In this document: piece after piece, positions 8,383-17,429 of the stretch
How the letters are laid out: each line of letters begins with the position of its first letter
Position numbering within the stretch: the stretch's first letter is position 1
Assembly (NCBI RefSeq): GCF_013033355.1
Contig: NZ_WQDY01000001.1
Coordinates: forward strand, 496,001-560,000
Length of the DNA: 64,000 nucleotides
Reading direction: 5' to 3'
Source of the DNA: Ruegeria lacuscaerulensis
Lineage (GTDB): Bacteria; Pseudomonadota; Alphaproteobacteria; Rhodobacterales; Rhodobacteraceae
The notes under the pieces: generated by a model
What the model was told of the DNA's origin: nothing
What the model saw: the letters and a program-made list of their open reading frames with translations, nothing else
Database searches by the model: none
Made by a program: the position numbers and the translations under genes

Positions 8383-9138
8383 ATGGCGCGTCGCAAGAAA
8401 ATCTACGAAGGCAAGGCCAAAATTCTGTATGAAGGTCCCGAAGCGGGTACGATCGTTCAGTACTTCAAGGACGACGCGACCGCATTCAATGCGGAAAAGA
8501 AGGACGTGATCGACGGTAAAGGCGTGCTGAACAACCGCCTGAGCGAGTATTTCATGAACGGCCTGAACCAGATCGGCGTGCCCACACATTTCATTCGCCG
8601 CCTGAATATGCGTGAGCAATTGGTGCGCAGCTGTGAAATCGTGCCGCTAGAAGTCATCGTGCGTAACTATGCTGCAGGGTCGATGTCCAAACGTTTGGGT
8701 ATTGCCGAAGGTACTCAATTGCCGCGCCCCATCGTCGAGTACTGCTATAAGGATGACTCGCTGGGTGATCCGCTGGTGACCGAAGAACACATCGCTGCTT
8801 TTGGCTGGGCCAGCCAGCAGGATATGGACGATATTCTAAGCCTTGCGCTGCGCGTAAATGATTTCATGAGCGGCATTATGTTGGCCGTTGGCATTCGTCT
8901 GGTCGACTTCAAGATAGAGATCGGGCGTGTTTTCGAAGGCGATTATCAACGTTTGATCGTTGCAGATGAAATCAGCCCTGACAGCTGTCGCCTTTGGGAT
9001 ATCGAAAGTGGCCAAAAGCTGGATAAAGACGTGTTTCGGAGAGATTTGGGCAATCTTACAGATGCCTATTCCGAAGTTGCCCGTCGTTTGGGTGTTTTGC
9101 CAAAAAGCAATGTAACCAAGCCGACGCTGATCAACTGA
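8383..9138 (+). CDS. purC: Phosphoribosylaminoimidazole-succinocarboxamide synthase
   Basis: PurC joins aspartate to carboxyaminoimidazole ribotide using ATP in purine synthesis. The 251-residue protein opens with [14 protein letters not shown], the family's ATP-binding start, and contains [13 protein letters not shown] and DFKIEIGR. The ATG at 8383 was chosen because the conserved sequence starts there, preceded by GGAAGGG. purS and purQ follow about 0.9 kb downstream, with a terminator and a marC-like gene in between, so the pur genes are neighbours but not one transcript. Confidence 0.96.
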
Positions 9139-9162
9139 ATCTCTGCCCTCAGGGCAAGACGA

Positions 9163-9190
9163 AACGCCGCTTCGTAAAGCGGCGTTTTTT
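9163..9190 (+). terminator. Rho-independent terminator after purC
   Basis: AACGCCGCTT pairs perfectly with AAGCGGCGTT around a CGTA loop, followed by T4 and then a second T-rich run. It starts 25 bases after the purC stop. Confidence 0.92.
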
Positions 9191-9266
9191 CTTTTTTTGG
9201 TGGCGTTTGACAGTGCCATGGATTGTCTCGCATTGTCTGCCGAGGCAATTCTAAGCAAGGCGTGAA

Positions 9267-9926
9267 ATGGCTGAACTATTTGACCAGGCAGTTTTTCTGA
9301 AATTTCTTGCGGCTTTGCTCGCGATTTTCAACCCGTTGTACGGTATCCCGATTTTCCTGGGCATGACCGATGGCTACACGGCACCCGAGCGCAAACGGGT
9401 CGCGCTGATCGTGATTGCCACGGTTGTCGCTGTCGCATTGATTGCCGTTTTGATTGGAGAAGAAATCCTGGCCGTTTTCGGGATCGACATTCCGTCATTT
9501 CGTATTGCGGGCGGGTTGATCATCCTCGGGGTCGGCATGTCTATGCTGAATGCATCGGACCGGCCAAAGGGGGATCAGCAGGCCGTGCAAGATGGGGCGA
9601 AGAAAAGCAACATAGCCGTTGTGCCTTTGGCGATCCCCCTGACTATTGGCCCCGGTACAATCGCAACCACCATCGTGTTTGCGCATAGCCTACCAGACGG
9701 GGCCGAGATTGTAACATTGGGTTCAGCGGTCCTTATAGCCTGCGCAATTGTGGGGCTTGGTTTGTTGTTCGCCGATCCGATTTCGCGCGTTCTTGGGCCG
9801 ACGATGATAAATGTGGTCACTCGGGTCATGGCTATTATTCTTGTCGCGGTTGCCGTTGAAATGGTGCTGACAGGGACATTCAACGCGATTGATGCCCATT
9901 ACCCCGGGCTTTCAGGCAAGAGCTGA
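9267..9926 (+). CDS. MarC family integral membrane protein
   Basis: A 219-residue inner-membrane protein of the MarC/NAAT family with six predicted helices. Family hallmarks are NPLYGIPIFLGM near the start and PLAIPLTIGPGTIATTI in the middle. The molecular function of MarC proteins is not established; some archaeal relatives transport small neutral amino acids. A second, more diverged MarC protein is encoded at 52431-53069 of this window. The gene sits between purC and purS without an evident link to purines. Confidence 0.9.
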   Translation: MAELFDQAVFLKFLAALLAIFNPLYGIPIFLGMTDGYTAPERKRVALIVIATVVAVALIAVLIGEEILAVFGIDIPSFRIAGGLIILGVGMSMLNASDRPKGDQQAVQDGAKKSNIAVVPLAIPLTIGPGTIATTIVFAHSLPDGAEIVTLGSAVLIACAIVGLGLLFADPISRVLGPTMINVVTRVMAIILVAVAVEMVLTGTFNAIDAHYPGLSGKS

Positions 9927-10039
9927 CGCGGCCTGCGGCAAACTGCGTGCGGACAAGGGTTGTCGAATGGCAAAAGGCGCGCTATCCCCCGCGCAACGGA
10001 ACGGGCCGTATCCGCTGGCCCTTAGCTGGAGTTGCAGGA

Positions 10040-10270
10040 ATGAAAGCACGTGTGCATGTGATGCTCAAGAATGGGGTTCTCGACCCACAGGGCGAGGCCG
10101 TGCGCCACGCATTGGGTGCCATGGGCTTTGACCAGGTCGAAGGCGTACGTCAGGGCAAGGTGATTGACCTTGAATTGGCCGAAGGTGCAACCGAGGCAGA
10201 CGTAACCGAGATGTGCGAAAAGCTGTTGGCCAATACGGTCATCGAACGCTACGAGATCGAACTGGTCTGA
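10040..10270 (+). CDS. purS: Phosphoribosylformylglycinamidine synthase subunit PurS
   Basis: PurS is the small bridging subunit of the three-part FGAM synthase (PurS, PurQ, PurL). The 76-residue protein has the expected [20 protein letters not shown] start and the conserved GKVIDLEL strand. The ATG at 10040 has a GCAGG ribosome site and sits where conservation begins. purQ follows after 23 bases. purL is not in the window. Confidence 0.95.
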
Positions 10271-10293
10271 CCCTTACCTCCGGAGGCCCCGCC

Positions 10294-10962
10294 ATGCGCG
10301 CTGCAGTCATCGTATTCCCCGGTTCCAACTGTGACCGGGATTTGGCCGTCGCTTTTGAACAAGCCGGTTTTCAGGTCGACATGGTCTGGCACAAAGACGC
10401 GTCTCTGCCCGAGGGCGTCGATATCGTCGGAGTCCCCGGCGGTTTCTCGTACGGTGACTACCTGCGATGTGGCGCTATCGCGGCGCAATCGCCGATCTGC
10501 AAAGCTGTTGTGGAACACACTGAACGCGGTGGCTATGCGGTTGGTGTTTGTAACGGCTTCCAAATCCTGACCGAGACCGGCATCCTTCCAGGCGCTTTGC
10601 TGCGCAATGCCGGGCTCAAATATATCTGTCGGACTGTAGGCTTGAAGGTAGAAACCAGCGACAGTGCTTTCACCAACGCTTATAATGTCGGCGATGTCAT
10701 CGGTATTCCGATTGCGCACCATGATGGAAACTATTTCGCCGATGACGCAACACTGTCCACACTTCGTGATCAAGACAGGATCGCGTTCACCTATACCGAG
10801 AATCCCAATGGGTCGGTTGGCGATATCGCGGGCATCTTGTCGGAAAACCGTCGCGTTCTTGGCATGATGCCACACCCCGAGCGCGCTGCAGACGAAGGTC
10901 ACGGCGGCACAGACGGCACGGCATTGTTCCGCGCATTGTCGGGTGTTTTGGCGCTGGCGTGA
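10294..10962 (+). CDS. purQ: Phosphoribosylformylglycinamidine synthase subunit PurQ
   Basis: PurQ is the glutaminase subunit that feeds ammonia to FGAM synthase. The 222-residue class I amidotransferase has FPGSNCDRD at the start, the nucleophile cysteine in GVCNGFQIL, and the His-Glu pair in MPHPERA. The start at 10294 follows a strong CCGGAGG. It is the second gene of the purS-purQ unit. dctB begins 36 bases after the stop, beyond two small inverted repeats. Confidence 0.97.
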
Positions 10963-10998: not shown

Positions 10999-12777
10999 AT
11001 GAGCTCCGACACCCAATCTGGCTGGTCTTCGATTAAAAATCCATTCCGGGGCGCTCCTTTGGGGTGGCGCTTGCGGGTCGCGGTTTCGATCCTTCTGATT
11101 GCAACCGTTGGAACGATTTGGGTGACCAACCGTTTGCTGACGGACCGATTTACTGAATCGACCCGAAACAGAGCCGAAGTACGCCTTGCGCTGTATTCGG
11201 GAAACTTGCTGAGCGAACTGCGGCGGAACGCGATTGTTCCGCAACTACTGGCTCGTGATCCGACACTGATATCGGCGCTTCAGTCCAGCGACTATACCCT
11301 ATCCACTCAGCGCCTTATCTCGTTTGTCGAGGAGATCGGCGCCGCATCGTTGATGTTGTTGGACAGCGACGGGCGGACCGTGGCTGCTACCGACAGGAAC
11401 CGCCTAGGCGAAGCGCATCGAAACTCGCCTTACTATGTGGATGCTGTTCGTTCCAATGCCACGATTTTTTCGGTCATTAAGAATGAGGCGGGGGGATACA
11501 GTTTTGTCTATTCGCGCCGCATGGACTCTGGAGCAGATATTCTGGGCGTCATCGTCGTTGAAGTCGATCTGCAGAAATTCGAACGCGCTTGGGCGGGTAT
11601 TTCTGATGCTGTGATGGTTGCAGATAGTACGGGTACGGTCATTCTGTCGACCGAACCGCGGTGGCGCGGATTGGAGGAAAGCACTGCCATTCAGCGGCAA
11701 CCGCCCGAAAACGCCATTGAGCGGGCGATCCGCGCAACCGCTGATTGGACCGCGCTGCCGCCGGATGCTTATCTGCAGGGCGAAGCTGTTATGCGTATGG
11801 ACTCCCGCATACCGTTCCGTGGTTGGACGATCACGTCTTTCACAACTTACTCGTCCATCCGGGAAAAGGTGAACAGTGTAATTGCGCTGGAAATCATGGG
11901 GTTTGCGATTCTTCTTGCCCTGGCTTTCTATGCTCTCAGCCGCCGGGCGACGTTCCGCATGGCGCTGTTTCAGCGCGAGTCGGCAGAGCTTCGCGCATTG
12001 AATGCACGCCTGCAGCGGGAAATCGCTGAGAGAGAACGGGTTGAAAAGACGCTGGAAGTTGCCGAACAGACGCTGGCGCAAAGCTCGAAACTGGCCGCGT
12101 TGGGCGAGATGTCGGCCGCTGTCAGTCACGAGCTCAATCAACCTCTGGCTGCAATGAAAACTTATCTGGCAGGCGCGCGCCTGCTGCTGCGCAGGAACCG
12201 CCCCGAAGAAGCGCTGGCCAGCTTTGGTCGTATCGATGGACTGATCGAGCGGATGGGTGCGATAACCCGTCAGCTCAAATCCTATGCTCGGAAGGGCGCG
12301 GATGCGTTTTCCCCTGTAAATCTTGGCGAAGCGCTGGCTTCGGCCTTGTCGATGATGGAGCCGCAATTGCGTCAGCGACACGTCAAGATCACCCAAATTC
12401 TGCCTGAAGAACCGGTGTTTGCACTGGGGGACCGAATGCGGATTGAGCAGGTAATGGTCAACCTCTTGCGTAATGCACTGGACGCCACCAAATCAGTATC
12501 TGAACCGGATGTAGAAATCATTCTTGCCGCAGGGGATATGGCGGTGCTGACGGTGCGGGACAATGGCCATGGAATCGAGGATATCGAAAACCTGTTCGAA
12601 CCTTTCTATACCACCAAGCAGCCGGGCGATGGCGTCGGGCTGGGGCTTGCCATCTCTTCCGGGATCGTGAACGACCATGGGGGACGGCTGACTGCCCGCA
12701 ACAGCCCCAACGGGGGCGCGGTGTTCGAGATGCAGCTGCCTATACTTGGAAGCGATGGCCTAGAGGCCGCGGAATAA
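10999..12777 (+). CDS. dctB: C4-dicarboxylate sensor histidine kinase DctB
   Basis: A 592-residue membrane histidine kinase. A first helix at about residues 27-46 and a second at 291-312 enclose a roughly 240-residue periplasmic sensor region of the double-Cache type. A coiled coil follows, then the HisKA box with His377 in VSHELNQPLAAM. The ATPase domain has N (VNLLRNALDA), G1 (VRDNGHGI) and G2 (GVGLGLAIS) boxes. The domain order and the neighbouring response regulator fit DctB, which senses succinate, malate or fumarate. No dicarboxylate transporter gene is nearby. The ATG has no clear ribosome site. Confidence 0.88.
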   Translation: MSSDTQSGWSSIKNPFRGAPLGWRLRVAVSILLIATVGTIWVTNRLLTDRFTESTRNRAEVRLALYSGNLLSELRRNAIVPQLLARDPTLISALQSSDYTLSTQRLISFVEEIGAASLMLLDSDGRTVAATDRNRLGEAHRNSPYYVDAVRSNATIFSVIKNEAGGYSFVYSRRMDSGADILGVIVVEVDLQKFERAWAGISDAVMVADSTGTVILSTEPRWRGLEESTAIQRQPPENAIERAIRATADWTALPPDAYLQGEAVMRMDSRIPFRGWTITSFTTYSSIREKVNSVIALEIMGFAILLALAFYALSRRATFRMALFQRESAELRALNARLQREIAERERVEKTLEVAEQTLAQSSKLAALGEMSAAVSHELNQPLAAMKTYLAGARLLLRRNRPEEALASFGRIDGLIERMGAITRQLKSYARKGADAFSPVNLGEALASALSMMEPQLRQRHVKITQILPEEPVFALGDRMRIEQVMVNLLRNALDATKSVSEPDVEIILAAGDMAVLTVRDNGHGIEDIENLFEPFYTTKQPGDGVGLGLAISSGIVNDHGGRLTARNSPNGGAVFEMQLPILGSDGLEAAE

Positions 12778-12789
12778 CGGGGAAAGACT

Positions 12790-14124
12790 ATGGCACAGGC
12801 CATGAAAATCGCCATTGTGGACGACGAACAGGATATGCGGCAGTCAATCAGTCAATGGCTGGCACTGTCAGGATATGACACGGAAACATTTGCCAGCGCC
12901 GAAGATGCGCTCAAAGTTCTGGGGCCGGATTATCCAGGGATCGTTATTTCGGATATCAAGATGCCGGGAATGGACGGTATCCAGTTGCTGAAAAAACTCA
13001 TGGGAGCGGACAGTACGCTGCCGGTGATCATGATTACCGGGCACGGGGATGTGCCGATGGCTGTGGAAGCTATGCGCGTGGGCGCGTTCGATTTTCTGGA
13101 AAAGCCCTTCAATCCAGACCGGATGTCGGAACTGGCTAAGCGTGCCAGTAACGCTCGGCGCCTAACCTTGGACAACCGGGCACTGCGGCGAGAGCTGTCG
13201 GATGGCACGCAGATCATGAGCAAGCTGATCGGGGCCAGCCCGGTCATGGAACGCCTGCGTGAGGATATTCTGGATCTGGGGCAGGCCGATGGTCATGTGC
13301 TGATCGACGGTGAGACCGGTACCGGCAAGACCTTGGTGGCGCACGCCCTGCATGCGGTGGGTAGCCGGGCCGGTAAGAAATTCGTTCTGATTTCTTGCGC
13401 GGCCCTGGAAGAAGAGGCGCTTTCCAAACGGTTGTTCGGCCCCATGATGCCCGAGGATGCACAACTGCCTGCCGTTGAAGAAGCGCGCGGCGGTACCTTG
13501 GTTCTGGAAGACGTTGAAGCGCTAAGCGATACGCTGCAAGCGCGCTTGCTGAGCGTGATGAATGATCAGGGTACGCCTGCCGAGACGCGGATTATCGCGA
13601 TCTCGAACCTTCAGGAAGCCGGTAAGACCTCTGAAGATGTTCTGCGGCCGGACTTGTTCTATCGGCTCGCTGCGCTGCGTATCACCATGCCGCCGCTTCG
13701 CCAGCGTGGCGAAGATATCCTGACGTTGTTCACCCGCCTGAGCGAACAATTTGCCGAAGAATATGGCTGTGATGCGCCGCAAGTCAGCGCTCAAGAGGCC
13801 GCGCAGTTGTTGCAGGCGCCTTGGCCGGGGAATGTGCGACAACTGATCAACATCGCCGAGCGCGCAGTTTTGCAATCGCGTCGCGGCTCTGGAACGATTG
13901 CATCGTTACTGATGTCGGATCATGAAGAAATGCAACCCGTCATGACAACGGAAGGCAAGCCCCTGAAAGAATATGTTGAGGCGTTCGAACGGATGCTGAT
14001 CGACAATACTATGCGCCGTCATAAAGGCTCGATCGCGTCTGTGATGGACGAGCTGTGTTTGCCGCGGCGAACGTTGAACGAGAAGATGGCCAAATACGGG
14101 CTGCAACGTTCGGACTACTTGTGA
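12790..14124 (+). CDS. dctD: DctD-like response regulator lacking the GAFTGA loop
   Basis: A 444-residue regulator with a receiver domain (phospho-acceptor Asp55 in SDIKMPGMDG), an AAA+ domain with Walker A GETGTGKT (174-181), and a C-terminal Fis-type helix-turn-helix (SIASVMDELCLPRRTLNEKM). The arginine-containing RPDLFYRL is kept. After LFG (215-217), where bacterial enhancer-binding proteins have the sigma-54 contact motif GAFTGA, this protein reads PMMPEDAQLPAVEEA. Walker B reads LVLEDVEA rather than LFLDEI. It is paired with dctB 12 bases upstream. The receiver and HTH argue for function, but action through RpoN is doubtful. Confidence 0.88.
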   Translation: MAQAMKIAIVDDEQDMRQSISQWLALSGYDTETFASAEDALKVLGPDYPGIVISDIKMPGMDGIQLLKKLMGADSTLPVIMITGHGDVPMAVEAMRVGAFDFLEKPFNPDRMSELAKRASNARRLTLDNRALRRELSDGTQIMSKLIGASPVMERLREDILDLGQADGHVLIDGETGTGKTLVAHALHAVGSRAGKKFVLISCAALEEEALSKRLFGPMMPEDAQLPAVEEARGGTLVLEDVEALSDTLQARLLSVMNDQGTPAETRIIAISNLQEAGKTSEDVLRPDLFYRLAALRITMPPLRQRGEDILTLFTRLSEQFAEEYGCDAPQVSAQEAAQLLQAPWPGNVRQLINIAERAVLQSRRGSGTIASLLMSDHEEMQPVMTTEGKPLKEYVEAFERMLIDNTMRRHKGSIASVMDELCLPRRTLNEKMAKYGLQRSDYL

Positions 14125-14639: not shown

Positions 14640-17429
14640 ATGGCTAAGAAAATGCTTATCGATGCCACCCACACCGAGGAGACTCGGGTTGTGGTGGTCG
14701 ATGGAAACAAGGTCGAGGAGTTCGATTTTGAGTCCGAAAACAAACGTCAGCTTGCTGGCAACATCTATCTAGCAAAAGTAACGCGGGTTGAGCCGTCTTT
14801 GCAGGCGGCTTTTGTGGATTACGGCGGAAACCGGCACGGTTTTCTGGCGTTTTCCGAAATTCATCCCGACTACTACCAAATCCCAGTTGCCGATCGTGAA
14901 GCGCTGATGGAGGAAGAACGCGCTTATGCCGAGGCCATGAGGGCTCGGGATGAGGCGGAAGAATCCAAGCCCAAGAAACGCCGTTCGCGGTCGCGGACCA
15001 AGGCTGCCGACGTCAAAACGGATGATGCAGTCGAGACGCTTGAGGTGTCTTCGGAACCCTCGGGTATGGAAACGATTGATCTGGATGAGGGCGACGAACA
15101 ACCCGAGATGGCTGTGCCCGAAGGGACTTCCCCAGCGGATCACGTCGCGGACACTCCCGTTGAGGAACCGCTCGACGACGTGGAAGCACCAGATGCGGAA
15201 ACTGTAGCAGCCGCAGACGAACCGGAAAGTGCCGACCCCACTGTAGAGGAAGAAGTTGCCTCGGATACGGAGGGTGAAGAGACCCAAACAGAGGACTTGG
15301 AAACATCCTCCACCGACGAGGCGGGTCAGGTTGATACTCAACCCGACGTCGACGCTGTTGCGTCGGAAGACGCGCCGTCGGATGCTGACACTGAGCAAGC
15401 TGAAAGCAAGGCTGACTCCGATGAGCCAGACGATACCGAAGCCCGTGCGGATGCTACCGCAAAAGACGACACGATCGAATCTGTTGCGGATGAGGATGAC
15501 AGCGAAGACATTCGCCCTCCGCGCAAGCCGCGCCCGCGCCGGTACAAAATCCAAGAGGTGATCAAGGTCCGGCAGGTTTTGCTGGTTCAGGTCGTCAAAG
15601 AAGAGCGTGGCAACAAGGGCGCAGCGCTGACCACGTATCTCTCGTTGGCCGGTCGCTATTGCGTCTTGATGCCAAACACAGCGCGGGGTGGCGGTATCAG
15701 CCGCAAGATCACCAACGCGCCGGACCGCAAGAAACTGAAAGAGATCGCGGCAGATATCGACGTGCCGACAGGTGCCGGCCTGATCATTCGGACCGCTGGG
15801 GCCAAACGGACCAAATCCGAGATCAAACGTGACTACGAATACCTACAGCGTATGTGGGAGCAGATCCGCGAGTTGACGCTCAAATCCATAGCGCCGGCTA
15901 AGATCTATGAAGAGGGCGACCTGATCAAACGCTCGATCCGCGATTTGTACAATCGCGATATCGACGAGGTACTGGTCGAAGGCGAGGGCGGGTACCGCAT
16001 CGCCAAGGACTTCATGAAGATGATCATGCCGTCCCATGCCAAGAACGTGAAACGGTATGAGGATGCTCTGCCGCTGTTTGCGCGCTATCAGGTGGAAAGC
16101 TATCTGGCCGGGATGTTCAACCCGACTGTGCAGTTGAAATCGGGTGGCTACATCGTAATCGGTGTAACCGAAGCGTTGGTCGCAATCGACGTGAACTCGG
16201 GTCGCGCGACCAAGGAAGGTTCGATCGAGGAAACCGCGCTCAAGACCAATCTCGAAGCTGCCGAAGAAGTGGCGCGCCAGTTGCGACTGCGCGACTTGGC
16301 CGGTCTGATTGTCATCGACTTTATCGATATGGACGAGCGCAAGAACAACTCGGCCGTCGAAAAGCGTCTAAAGGATAAGTTGAAAACGGATCGGGCGCGC
16401 ATTCAGGTTGGTCGTATTTCCGGCTTCGGCCTGCTTGAGATGAGTCGACAGCGGTTGCGCCCGGGTATGCTGGAAGCAACGACGCAGCCTTGCCCATCCT
16501 GTCATGGAACCGGGCTGATCCGTTCGGACGACAACATGGCGTTGACCATTTTGCGTCAGATCGAAGAAGAAGGTACGCGGCGCCGCTCGCGCGAGGTTTT
16601 GGTGCGCTGCCCCGTCAGCATAGCGAATTTCCTGATGAACCAGAAACGTGAGCATATCGCCCAAATCGAGTCGCGCTATGGTCTTTCGGTTCGTGTGGAA
16701 GGGGATATCCATCTGGTCAGCCCCGATTTTTCGATGGAGAAGTTTAAGACTGCAAGTCGGATTGTGCCCGAAGCGACAGCGCCAGTCGTTTCCGTAGATG
16801 CATCGCTGATGGATCTTGTCGACGCAGATGAAGAGGAAAGGGTCGAAGACGAAACGCCTCAGACAGACGAAGAAGCCAAGCCCAAGCGCAAGCGCCGCCG
16901 CCGCCGCCGCAAGAAGGGCAATGGAAATGGCGAAACGGCCGAGGTGAGCGCGGATGACGTTGAGGCCGCAGAGGCGTCAACTGTAGAAGAAGTAGCACCG
17001 GTCGAAGTAGACGAAACCGAAGCTGCAGAGTCCGTTCCGGCGGAAAGCGGCGAGGAAGAGGCTAAGCCTAAACGCCGCCGTGCGCCACGTCGTAAAAAGA
17101 AGGAAACCACACCGGTTGATGCCGAAGGCGAGTCGGTTGAGACTGCTGAGGTGCAAACTGAAGTGGTCGAAGAAACCGTGAAGGAATCGGCTGCACCAGC
17201 GGAATCGAATGAAGTCGAACTCGCTGACGATATTGTTGCTGAAAGCACTGAGTCACCCGAGGCGGAGGCGGAAGAGCCTGTAGCAGCGGTCGCAGAGGAA
17301 AGCCAGGAACCGGAGGTGGCGCCGGAACCGGAACCAGTAGCAGAAGAGCCGGTACTTGAGGTCGTTGCCGAGGAACCCGCAGAACCTGCGAAGCCCAAGC
17401 GGCGCGGATGGTGGTCACTGGGACAATAA
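14640..17429 (+). CDS. rne: Ribonuclease E
   Basis: The 929-residue endoribonuclease at the core of the RNA degradosome. The N-terminal S1 domain is split by an Asp/Glu-rich insertion of about 200 residues (roughly 90-290), after which S1 resumes at IQEVIKVRQVLLVQ. The catalytic region has AIDVNSGRATKEGS (near 516) and IVIDFIDM with the metal-binding aspartates. The zinc-link motif CPSCHGTG lies near 617. The C-terminal tail is disordered, with alternating acidic stretches and arginine-rich patches such as KRKRRRRRRK, expected to bind RNA. The start at 14640 has AAGGA upstream. Confidence 0.96.
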   Translation: MAKKMLIDATHTEETRVVVVDGNKVEEFDFESENKRQLAGNIYLAKVTRVEPSLQAAFVDYGGNRHGFLAFSEIHPDYYQIPVADREALMEEERAYAEAMRARDEAEESKPKKRRSRSRTKAADVKTDDAVETLEVSSEPSGMETIDLDEGDEQPEMAVPEGTSPADHVADTPVEEPLDDVEAPDAETVAAADEPESADPTVEEEVASDTEGEETQTEDLETSSTDEAGQVDTQPDVDAVASEDAPSDADTEQAESKADSDEPDDTEARADATAKDDTIESVADEDDSEDIRPPRKPRPRRYKIQEVIKVRQVLLVQVVKEERGNKGAALTTYLSLAGRYCVLMPNTARGGGISRKITNAPDRKKLKEIAADIDVPTGAGLIIRTAGAKRTKSEIKRDYEYLQRMWEQIRELTLKSIAPAKIYEEGDLIKRSIRDLYNRDIDEVLVEGEGGYRIAKDFMKMIMPSHAKNVKRYEDALPLFARYQVESYLAGMFNPTVQLKSGGYIVIGVTEALVAIDVNSGRATKEGSIEETALKTNLEAAEEVARQLRLRDLAGLIVIDFIDMDERKNNSAVEKRLKDKLKTDRARIQVGRISGFGLLEMSRQRLRPGMLEATTQPCPSCHGTGLIRSDDNMALTILRQIEEEGTRRRSREVLVRCPVSIANFLMNQKREHIAQIESRYGLSVRVEGDIHLVSPDFSMEKFKTASRIVPEATAPVVSVDASLMDLVDADEEERVEDETPQTDEEAKPKRKRRRRRRKKGNGNGETAEVSADDVEAAEASTVEEVAPVEVDETEAAESVPAESGEEEAKPKRRRAPRRKKKETTPVDAEGESVETAEVQTEVVEETVKESAAPAESNEVELADDIVAESTESPEAEAEEPVAAVAEESQEPEVAPEPEPVAEEPVLEVVAEEPAEPAKPKRRGWWSLGQ

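Follow-up and report, generated by a model that had tools for sequence, protein, structure and literature searches.

The window, a 64-kb stretch of the draft genome of Ruegeria lacuscaerulensis (4.64 Mb, 37 contigs, 99.98% complete), harbours a gene pair coding for a DctB-like sensor kinase and an NtrC/DctD-type response regulator, hereafter DctD1, flanked by purQ and rne (Table 1). The order purQ-kinase-DctD1 is found in 79 of 80 named loci and also in Paracoccus, where the DctD1 ortholog is annotated as a 'sigma-54-dependent Fis family transcriptional regulator'. Of 12 divergent genomes, nine had a gene labelled purQ close to the kinase and DctD1 genes, two of these with an intervening gene; in the remaining three, our simple way of picking genes may have concealed it. 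In some divergent members (L264, L265, L266, L268 and L270), the pair lies near to or tail to tail with genes that we take, from the look of their sequences, to code for a corrinoid protein, a DUF1638 protein and a BHMT-like protein, and in other clades rne-ccdA occupies their place. As the tail-to-tail neighbours differ between clades, we rejected them as a clue to function.

Table 1. Genes of the kinase-DctD1 locus and sites within DctD1, in window coordinates
Feature	Position	Strand	Evidence
purQ, upstream neighbour, ~36 bp before the kinase gene	10294..10962	+	79/80 named loci; Paracoccus
DctB-like sensor kinase, dCache sensor + HisKA + HATPase	10999..12777	+	Pfam; dCache_1 39.5 bits, curated cut-off 45
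DctD1, NtrC/DctD-type response regulator, 444 aa, without GAFTGA	12790..14124	+	Pfam receiver, Sigma54_activat, AAA lid, HTH_8
D55 phospho-acceptor codon	12952..12954	+	Asp in 124/124 distinct orthologs
Walker A GETGTGKT (174-181)	13309..13332	+	Lys180 in 123/124 orthologs
Shortened L1 segment (218-233), place of GAFTGA	13441..13488	+	Alignment with GAFTGA-bearing Azospirillum proteins; 0/124 GAFTGA-like
Altered Walker B LVLED (237-241), Glu-Asp for Asp-Glu	13498..13512	+	Position 240 Glu in 122/124
Shortened pre-sensor-I (L2) segment (254-266)	13549..13587	+	Alignment; 13 residues in 113/124
Arg-finger region R286...R292	13645..13665	+	Each in 123/124
Fis-type HTH, recognition segment LPRRTLNEKM	14029..14103	+	P425 to K432, six sites: 123/123 aligned
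rne (ribonuclease E/G), downstream neighbour	14640..17429	+	76/80 named loci; Paracoccus annotation

Altered motifs of DctD1

According to Pfam, DctD1 is composed of a receiver (residues 7-115), a Sigma54_activat domain (146-298, 93.7 bits), an AAA lid and a Fis-type HTH. The GAFTGA loop is the part of such activators that touches sigma-54. The earlier note had described it as replaced after LFG (residues 215-217), and PMMPEDAQLPA indeed follows there, the longer stretch after residue 217 being PMMPEDAQLPAVEEARGGTLVLEDVEA. In an alignment with two Azospirillum proteins that harbour GAFTGA (L248 and L250, the gene of the latter adjoining a dicarboxylate/cation symporter gene), one deletion removes GAFTGA from DctD1, and the pre-sensor-I insertion is shorter by about 9 residues, so that the change is larger than first claimed. 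In the same alignment, FLDE of the Azospirillum Walker B motifs becomes VLED in DctD1; the region, which the note had also called altered, reads LVLEDVEA from residue 237, with Glu-Asp where Asp-Glu was expected. Reading of the whole protein revealed no GAFTGA-like motif in another place. The AAA+ fold is retained, with Walker A, Arg fingers (places R286 and R292), sensor II (place R350) and the Fis HTH all present; we assigned the labels Arg finger, sensor I and sensor II by presumed analogy with other bEBPs.

The AlphaFold2 model of DctD1 (mean pLDDT 85.8, pTM 0.55) keeps the AAA+ elements and has a short loop at residues 217-227 in the place of L1. Foldseek placed the Brucella NtrX structures 5m7n, 5m7o and 5m7p at the top, with a TM score of ~0.5 over the whole chain, and the receiver matches the DctD receiver structures 1l5y and 1qkk (E 6.1e-42). 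The periplasmic domain of the partner kinase matches the DctB sensor structures 3by9 (E 1.3e-15) and 2zbb (2.9e-8), and also 3e4o, which makes a carboxylate-like signal plausible.

Conservation of DctD1 and distribution of sigma-54

Using best matches at E<=1e-114, a cut-off of our own setting, we found DctD1 orthologs in 178 of 198 genomes of the family, 20 having none; Ruegeria species rank nearest among the named relatives, sharing 98% protein identity. The 136 loci aligned (80 named records and 56 further genomes) yielded 124 distinct full-length sequences once repeats, a copy cut by a contig end (L156) and one with a frame break (L165) were left out. A GAFTGA-like motif is absent from all 124, down to 45% identity, and neither DctD1 nor any of these orthologs has such a motif elsewhere in the protein. 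The loss raised in the note for alignment across Rhodobacteraceae is thus clade-wide. Since the deletion occurs in every aligned ortholog, it cannot be put down to chance; judging from this alignment, the loss is old in the DctD1 lineage.

The receiver Asp, Walker A and HTH, which the note had called intact, are nearly invariant among these orthologs. D55, T83 and K105 are each found in 124/124 sequences, as is the sensor II Arg, and the catalytic position 241 varies (D 104, G 10, N 7, E 2, H 1; n=124). Measured against the window gene, dN/dS has medians of 0.035 over the whole sequence, 0.026 for the receiver, 0.055 for the AAA+ domain and 0.011 for the HTH (residues 390-444), the most constrained domain; synonymous sites are near saturation in these comparisons, and as saturated pairs drop out, 88 of the 99 sequences compared were usable overall and 49 for the HTH. 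By these patterns, selection on DctD1 preserves its phosphorylation, its binding of nucleotide and DNA and its subunit contacts, and has released the residues for hydrolysis together with the loop for sigma-54. The recognition segment PRRTLNEKM is identical in DctD1 and the GAFTGA-bearing Azospirillum protein L248; DNA recognition therefore probably predates the loss of the loop.

A few copies deserve mention. The 26 divergent ones (L143-L168) include one contig-end truncation (G158) and one frame break (G049), the latter splitting the gene into two overlapping pieces (L165, G049:C1:1372291-1373618). Two records titled Nocardioides marinus (L031) and Candidatus Poseidoniales archaeon (L093) contain this same locus of Rhodobacteraceae, the protein being 94% and 89% identical, respectively; these assemblies are probably mislabelled or contaminated.

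We searched for sigma-54 in the same genomes. The draft genome of R. lacuscaerulensis gave no match to PF04552 in a search that was positive in 4 of 14 control genomes, and its best match to PF04963 was at chance level (12.1 bits, cut-off 22.9). Within the genus, PF04552 was above cut-off in 6 of 54 genomes, one of these matches, of 23.5 bits over 35 positions, being probably spurious. In the family, it was above cut-off in 61 of 198 genomes, including a doubtful case at 23.2 bits (G075), and 137 had no match. DctD1 is present in 128 of the 137 rpoN-less genomes and in 50 of the 61 rpoN-bearing ones (Fisher p 0.02, kinship being ignored), which is if anything the opposite of what a partner of sigma-54 would show. 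Loss of the loop and loss of rpoN do not coincide, as the orthologs aligned from rpoN-bearing genomes are also devoid of the loop.

The codon pattern for GAFTGA occurs on average 1.57 times per genome with rpoN and 0.68 times without (reversed control, 0.75 and 0.78), a noisy count in which the rpoN-less genomes about equal the control; it is absent from the genome of R. lacuscaerulensis. Five more enhancer-type proteins of this genome (L001, L002, L003, L004 and L006), identified by reading their sequences, are devoid of GAFTGA. By their look they correspond to an NtrX, an NtrC, a PAS protein, a TIM-barrel-fused protein and an RtcR-like protein, the last with RSFTGQ in place of GAFTGA. Altogether, the motif and profile searches bring a sigma-54 role for DctD1 in R. 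lacuscaerulensis close to being excluded.

Other DctD types and the dctP operator

The DctB-type kinase with its dCache sensor is as expected of a DctD system. Nevertheless, DctD1 is adjacent neither to dctPQM nor to its operator: none of the 15 DctP-family matches of the genome lies within the 64-kb window, and the dctP operator pattern described below has no match there with up to two mismatches. A second GAFTGA-less pair, DctB2-DctD2, is encoded directly upstream of dctP-dctQ-dctM (dctD2 at G000:C1:430654-431880, or L173:4655-5884; 409 residues). DctD2 lacks the Walker A lysine (GPAGSGISK) and keeps Walker B (LFLDEIS), and the DctB2 sensor matches DctB structures less well than that of the window kinase (E 1.6e-4). 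Some relatives of DctD2 have lost Walker B too, and one (L221) is intermediate, with L1 partly lost and Walker A kept. Orthologs of DctD2 (E<=1e-110) were found in 84 of the 198 family genomes, against 178 for DctD1, and the two are therefore not a matched set. Based on these features, transport is probably not under the control of the window pair. The earlier note had proposed that this pair controls transport without RpoN: action free of RpoN stands, rpoN being undetected and the loop absent clade-wide, and control of transport is not supported, as dctPQM has its own pair and operator and the neighbours of the window pair are purQ and rne.

In the gap between dctD2 and dctP, far upstream of the latter, TGTGCGAAAATCCGCACA and TGTGTGGAATTTCGCACG form a tandem of operator-like palindromes with a spacing of 32 bp. 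Of 42 dctD2 loci, three were dropped and 39 had a usable gap; the dyad GTGCG-N6-CGCAC is found in 37 of these 39, the maximum for any dyad over 30 shuffles being 3. Two copies, each matching at 11 or more of 16 positions, are spaced by 32 or 33 bp in 38 of the 39 gaps, in a list unrestricted by spacing. With up to one mismatch, the pattern occurs at 11 places in the R. lacuscaerulensis genome and at 13 in the reversed control, and is thus not enriched. This candidate operator before dctP is the only site of that genome backed by conservation. The 39 dctP upstream regions revealed no -24/-12 element in a scan run without a positive control. About 98 bp downstream of the tandem operators, TTGAG is found in 20 of 39 regions and in 1 of 117 control windows, the interval of 85-112 having been picked after viewing the alignment; TTGAG as a -35 box is a lead.

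We also looked for an operator of DctD1. Dyad searches in five stretches flanking the gene pair, in the 80 named loci and Paracoccus (67-80 sequences each), yielded nothing that resembles the dctP operator. The strongest flanking dyad, AGAAC-N3-GTTCT, occurs in 30 of 77 relatives in the purC-purQ stretch (window 9136-10293) and may reflect coding conservation in purS, which is expected in that stretch. Scanning the family with TGCGGANNTCCGCA gave matches in 59 of 120 genomes; the 30 loci inspected among the matches listed were mostly inside ORFs, with some of the dctP type, and no recurrent new target emerged.

A third kind of DctD is encoded beside TRAP genes on the megaplasmid of Ruegeria pomeroyi DSS-3. 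This protein, SPO_RS21020, which gene order identifies as SPOA0237 (dctD-2), is devoid of GAFTGA, with Walker A and B intact. In the gap between its gene (L247:5647-6987) and the transporter gene lies a palindrome resembling CTGCGGA-N2-TCCGCAG, which R. pomeroyi shares with Leisingera and R. conchae. Other alphaproteobacterial DctD-like proteins (L204, L206, L208, L211 and L244), one of them encoded on S. meliloti pSymB, harbour GAFPGA or GAFAGA.

We built a tree of 67 rows with a quick method, trait columns included and bootstrap omitted. The DctD1 (23 rows), DctD2 (20 rows) and third (5 rows) groups have SH-aLRT values of 100, 100 and 99, respectively. DctD2 joins the DctD proteins bearing GAFTGA or GAFPGA at an SH-aLRT of 96, so that its loop was lost separately. 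Where DctD1 meets the SPOA0237 group, the branching lacks support, and the tree alone thus gives two losses; a third is probable because the deletions of these two groups differ. The loop therefore appears to have been lost at least twice among DctD types, and probably three times.

Genetic data are available for R. pomeroyi. In a section of PMC10041152, fitness shifts of the SPOA0237 (dctD-2) mutant resemble those of mutants of its TRAP transporter, and SPO2630 is termed a C4-dicarboxylate TRAP regulatory protein. Excerpts of PMC10130141 group SPO2630, a regulator or kinase, with dctMPQ (SPO2626-2628) and give its mutant values on fumarate and succinate near those of dctM and dctP mutants. 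As far as these sections go, Ruegeria seems to use its DctD-type pairs for activation, and SPOA0237, at the least, would activate in the absence of GAFTGA.

Proposed mode of action and related systems

As rpoN is undetected, the loop is lost and the rest of the protein is conserved, DctD1 probably switches genes in another way. We consider it likely that it acts at promoters of the housekeeping polymerase, or of another polymerase of the sigma-70 family, in a form that is switched by phosphorylation, binds ATP and is poor in hydrolysis. In this scheme, the DctB-like kinase would sense a signal and, as in the family at large, D55 would be phosphorylated. The near-invariance of Walker A, the Arg fingers and sensor II suggests that the phosphorylated protein would assemble through its AAA+ domain in an ATP-bound state. 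Given the altered acids of Walker B, this ATP would serve as an assembly ligand more than as a fuel, with little hydrolysis. The oligomer would then bind its operator through the constrained HTH and recruit or contact the sigma-70-family RNA polymerase directly, for which the absence of rpoN and the example of R. capsulatus NtrC argue. By analogy with the related Ruegeria pairs, which behave genetically as activators, activation is a better guess than repression at the targets of DctD1.

Alternatively, DctD1 might be mainly a repressor or a DNA-binding platform in the manner of TyrR or NtrX, phosphorylation and ATP shifting the oligomer at operators that overlap sigma-70 promoters. We regard this as rather unlikely. 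It would account for the loss of the catalytic acids from the AAA+ domain in a protein whose most constrained domain is the HTH; the nearest solved structures are those of NtrX, and Caulobacter NtrC both activates and represses according to a passage of PMC10274813. The activator-like behaviour of the R. pomeroyi DctD-type pairs in mutant screens, in the excerpts of PMC10130141 and PMC10041152, argues in the other direction. Less probable again is that DctD1 regulates C4-dicarboxylate transport in this organism, as its name implies. The DctB-like sensor domain and the match of the receiver to 1l5y and 1qkk would fit, yet dctPQM has the adjacent DctB2-DctD2 pair and a tandem operator, the window contains neither a DctP-family gene nor an operator match, and the two regulators differ too much in distribution (178 and 84 of 198 genomes) to be a matched set.

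The motifs of DctD2 evoke a further scheme, in which mixed rings would combine the good Walker A and poor Walker B of DctD1 with the missing Walker A lysine and good Walker B of DctD2 (GPAGSGISK and LFLDEIS). Such complementation is very improbable, as many genomes harbour DctD1 and no DctD2 ortholog, and Walker B is also lost in some DctD2 relatives. We give practically no credence to a sigma-54-dependent DctD1 with a cryptic contact loop: Pfam does name the domain Sigma54_activat, but rpoN was not detected, the loop is gone in 124/124 sequences and both loop regions are shortened. Hardly anything more can be said for a pseudogene decaying after the loss of rpoN. Loops and catalytic acids are lost and one copy is frame-broken (G049), but a dN/dS of ~0.035, an ortholog in 178 of 198 genomes, and a phospho-acceptor Asp and HTH invariant among the 124 full-length sequences are at odds with decay. 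Phosphorylation-switched action at housekeeping promoters is thus the reading that we retain for DctD1.

On a broader scale, we tentatively propose, with somewhat less than even confidence, that the DctD branch in Rhodobacteraceae gave rise on two or more occasions, probably three, to enhancer-bound, phosphorylation-switched activators of the housekeeping polymerase in which ATP is structural and has ceased to be a fuel, DctD1 being the most conserved and near-universal of them, with a fixed regulon other than dicarboxylate transport. If this is true, the tandem operators of DctD2, ~98 bp upstream of TTGAG, would represent remote, enhancer-like activation that survived without sigma-54. The Rhodobacteraceae would then offer a natural series of enhancer-binding proteins that lost the contact loop, the residues for hydrolysis and, in one paralog, the lysine of Walker A while regulation persisted, and in which the action of AAA+ activators without remodelling of sigma-54 could be studied. 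An rpoN-less background with the conserved tandem operator of dctP provides a simple test system. The 'sigma-54-dependent' label would be wrong in the genomes devoid of sigma-54, i.e. 137 of the 198 searched in the family.

Several bEBPs without a functional GAFTGA have been described. In the relevant passages of PMC10274813, R. capsulatus NtrC, from which GAFTGA is absent, acts with sigma-70 and depends on phosphorylation and on the binding, not the hydrolysis, of ATP; these passages bear out what the earlier note stated of its work with sigma-70. The same passages note the NtrC deletion in the order Rhodobacterales, and report that Caulobacter NtrC, also devoid of GAFTGA, requires residues of Walker A as well as of Walker B in vivo; hydrolysis can therefore matter in GAFTGA-less proteins. 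For VpsR (printed VspR), ATP is reportedly unneeded (same source). Passages of PMC3162934 describe TyrR, DhaR and HupR as GAFTGA-defective and sigma-70-dependent, and link the missing sigma-54 of Jannaschia to an altered motif.

DctD1 shares with R. capsulatus NtrC the L1 deletion with loss of GAFTGA, the retained Walker A and the retained phospho-acceptor. Nevertheless, the latter is a different paralog, and DctD1 has in addition a changed Walker B and a DctB-like kinase; R. lacuscaerulensis itself has a separate NtrC-like protein, named from its sequence, that is also devoid of GAFTGA. Relative to a sigma-54-dependent bEBP, DctD1 lacks GAFTGA in L1 and the Asp-Glu of Walker B, and sigma-54 is undetected in the cell. 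Brucella abortus NtrX, the top match in both sequence and fold among solved structures, has no GAFTGA either, but in the alignment it keeps the pre-sensor-I insertion and the Walker B Asp-Glu. NtrX also differs from DctD1 in its kinase and gene position.

DctD of rhizobia and Azospirillum is a sigma-54 activator of C4-dicarboxylate uptake. Like DctD1, these proteins have an adjacent sensor kinase, and L248 also shares PRRTLNEKM; the two Azospirillum proteins keep GAFTGA, whereas DctD1 has neither the motif nor an adjoining transporter. DctD2 and the SPOA0237-type DctD are GAFTGA-less proteins of Rhodobacteraceae, as is DctD1, but they form separate branches of the tree, are encoded beside TRAP transporters and are associated with palindromes of the types TGTGCGGA-N2-TCCGCACA or CTGCGGA-N2-TCCGCAG. 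VpsR, TyrR, DhaR and HupR are bEBP paralogs of other lineages that have lost the contact with sigma-54 as DctD1 has. We found no description of the DctD1 protein in the open-licence literature. As judged from the passages cited above, loss of GAFTGA with action at sigma-70 promoters is already known for R. capsulatus NtrC, HupR, TyrR and DhaR; as far as our searches of the open literature go, it is new that the DctD1 type spans the family and has an altered Walker B, that the loop was lost in parallel among DctD proteins, and that the dctP operator has a conserved layout.
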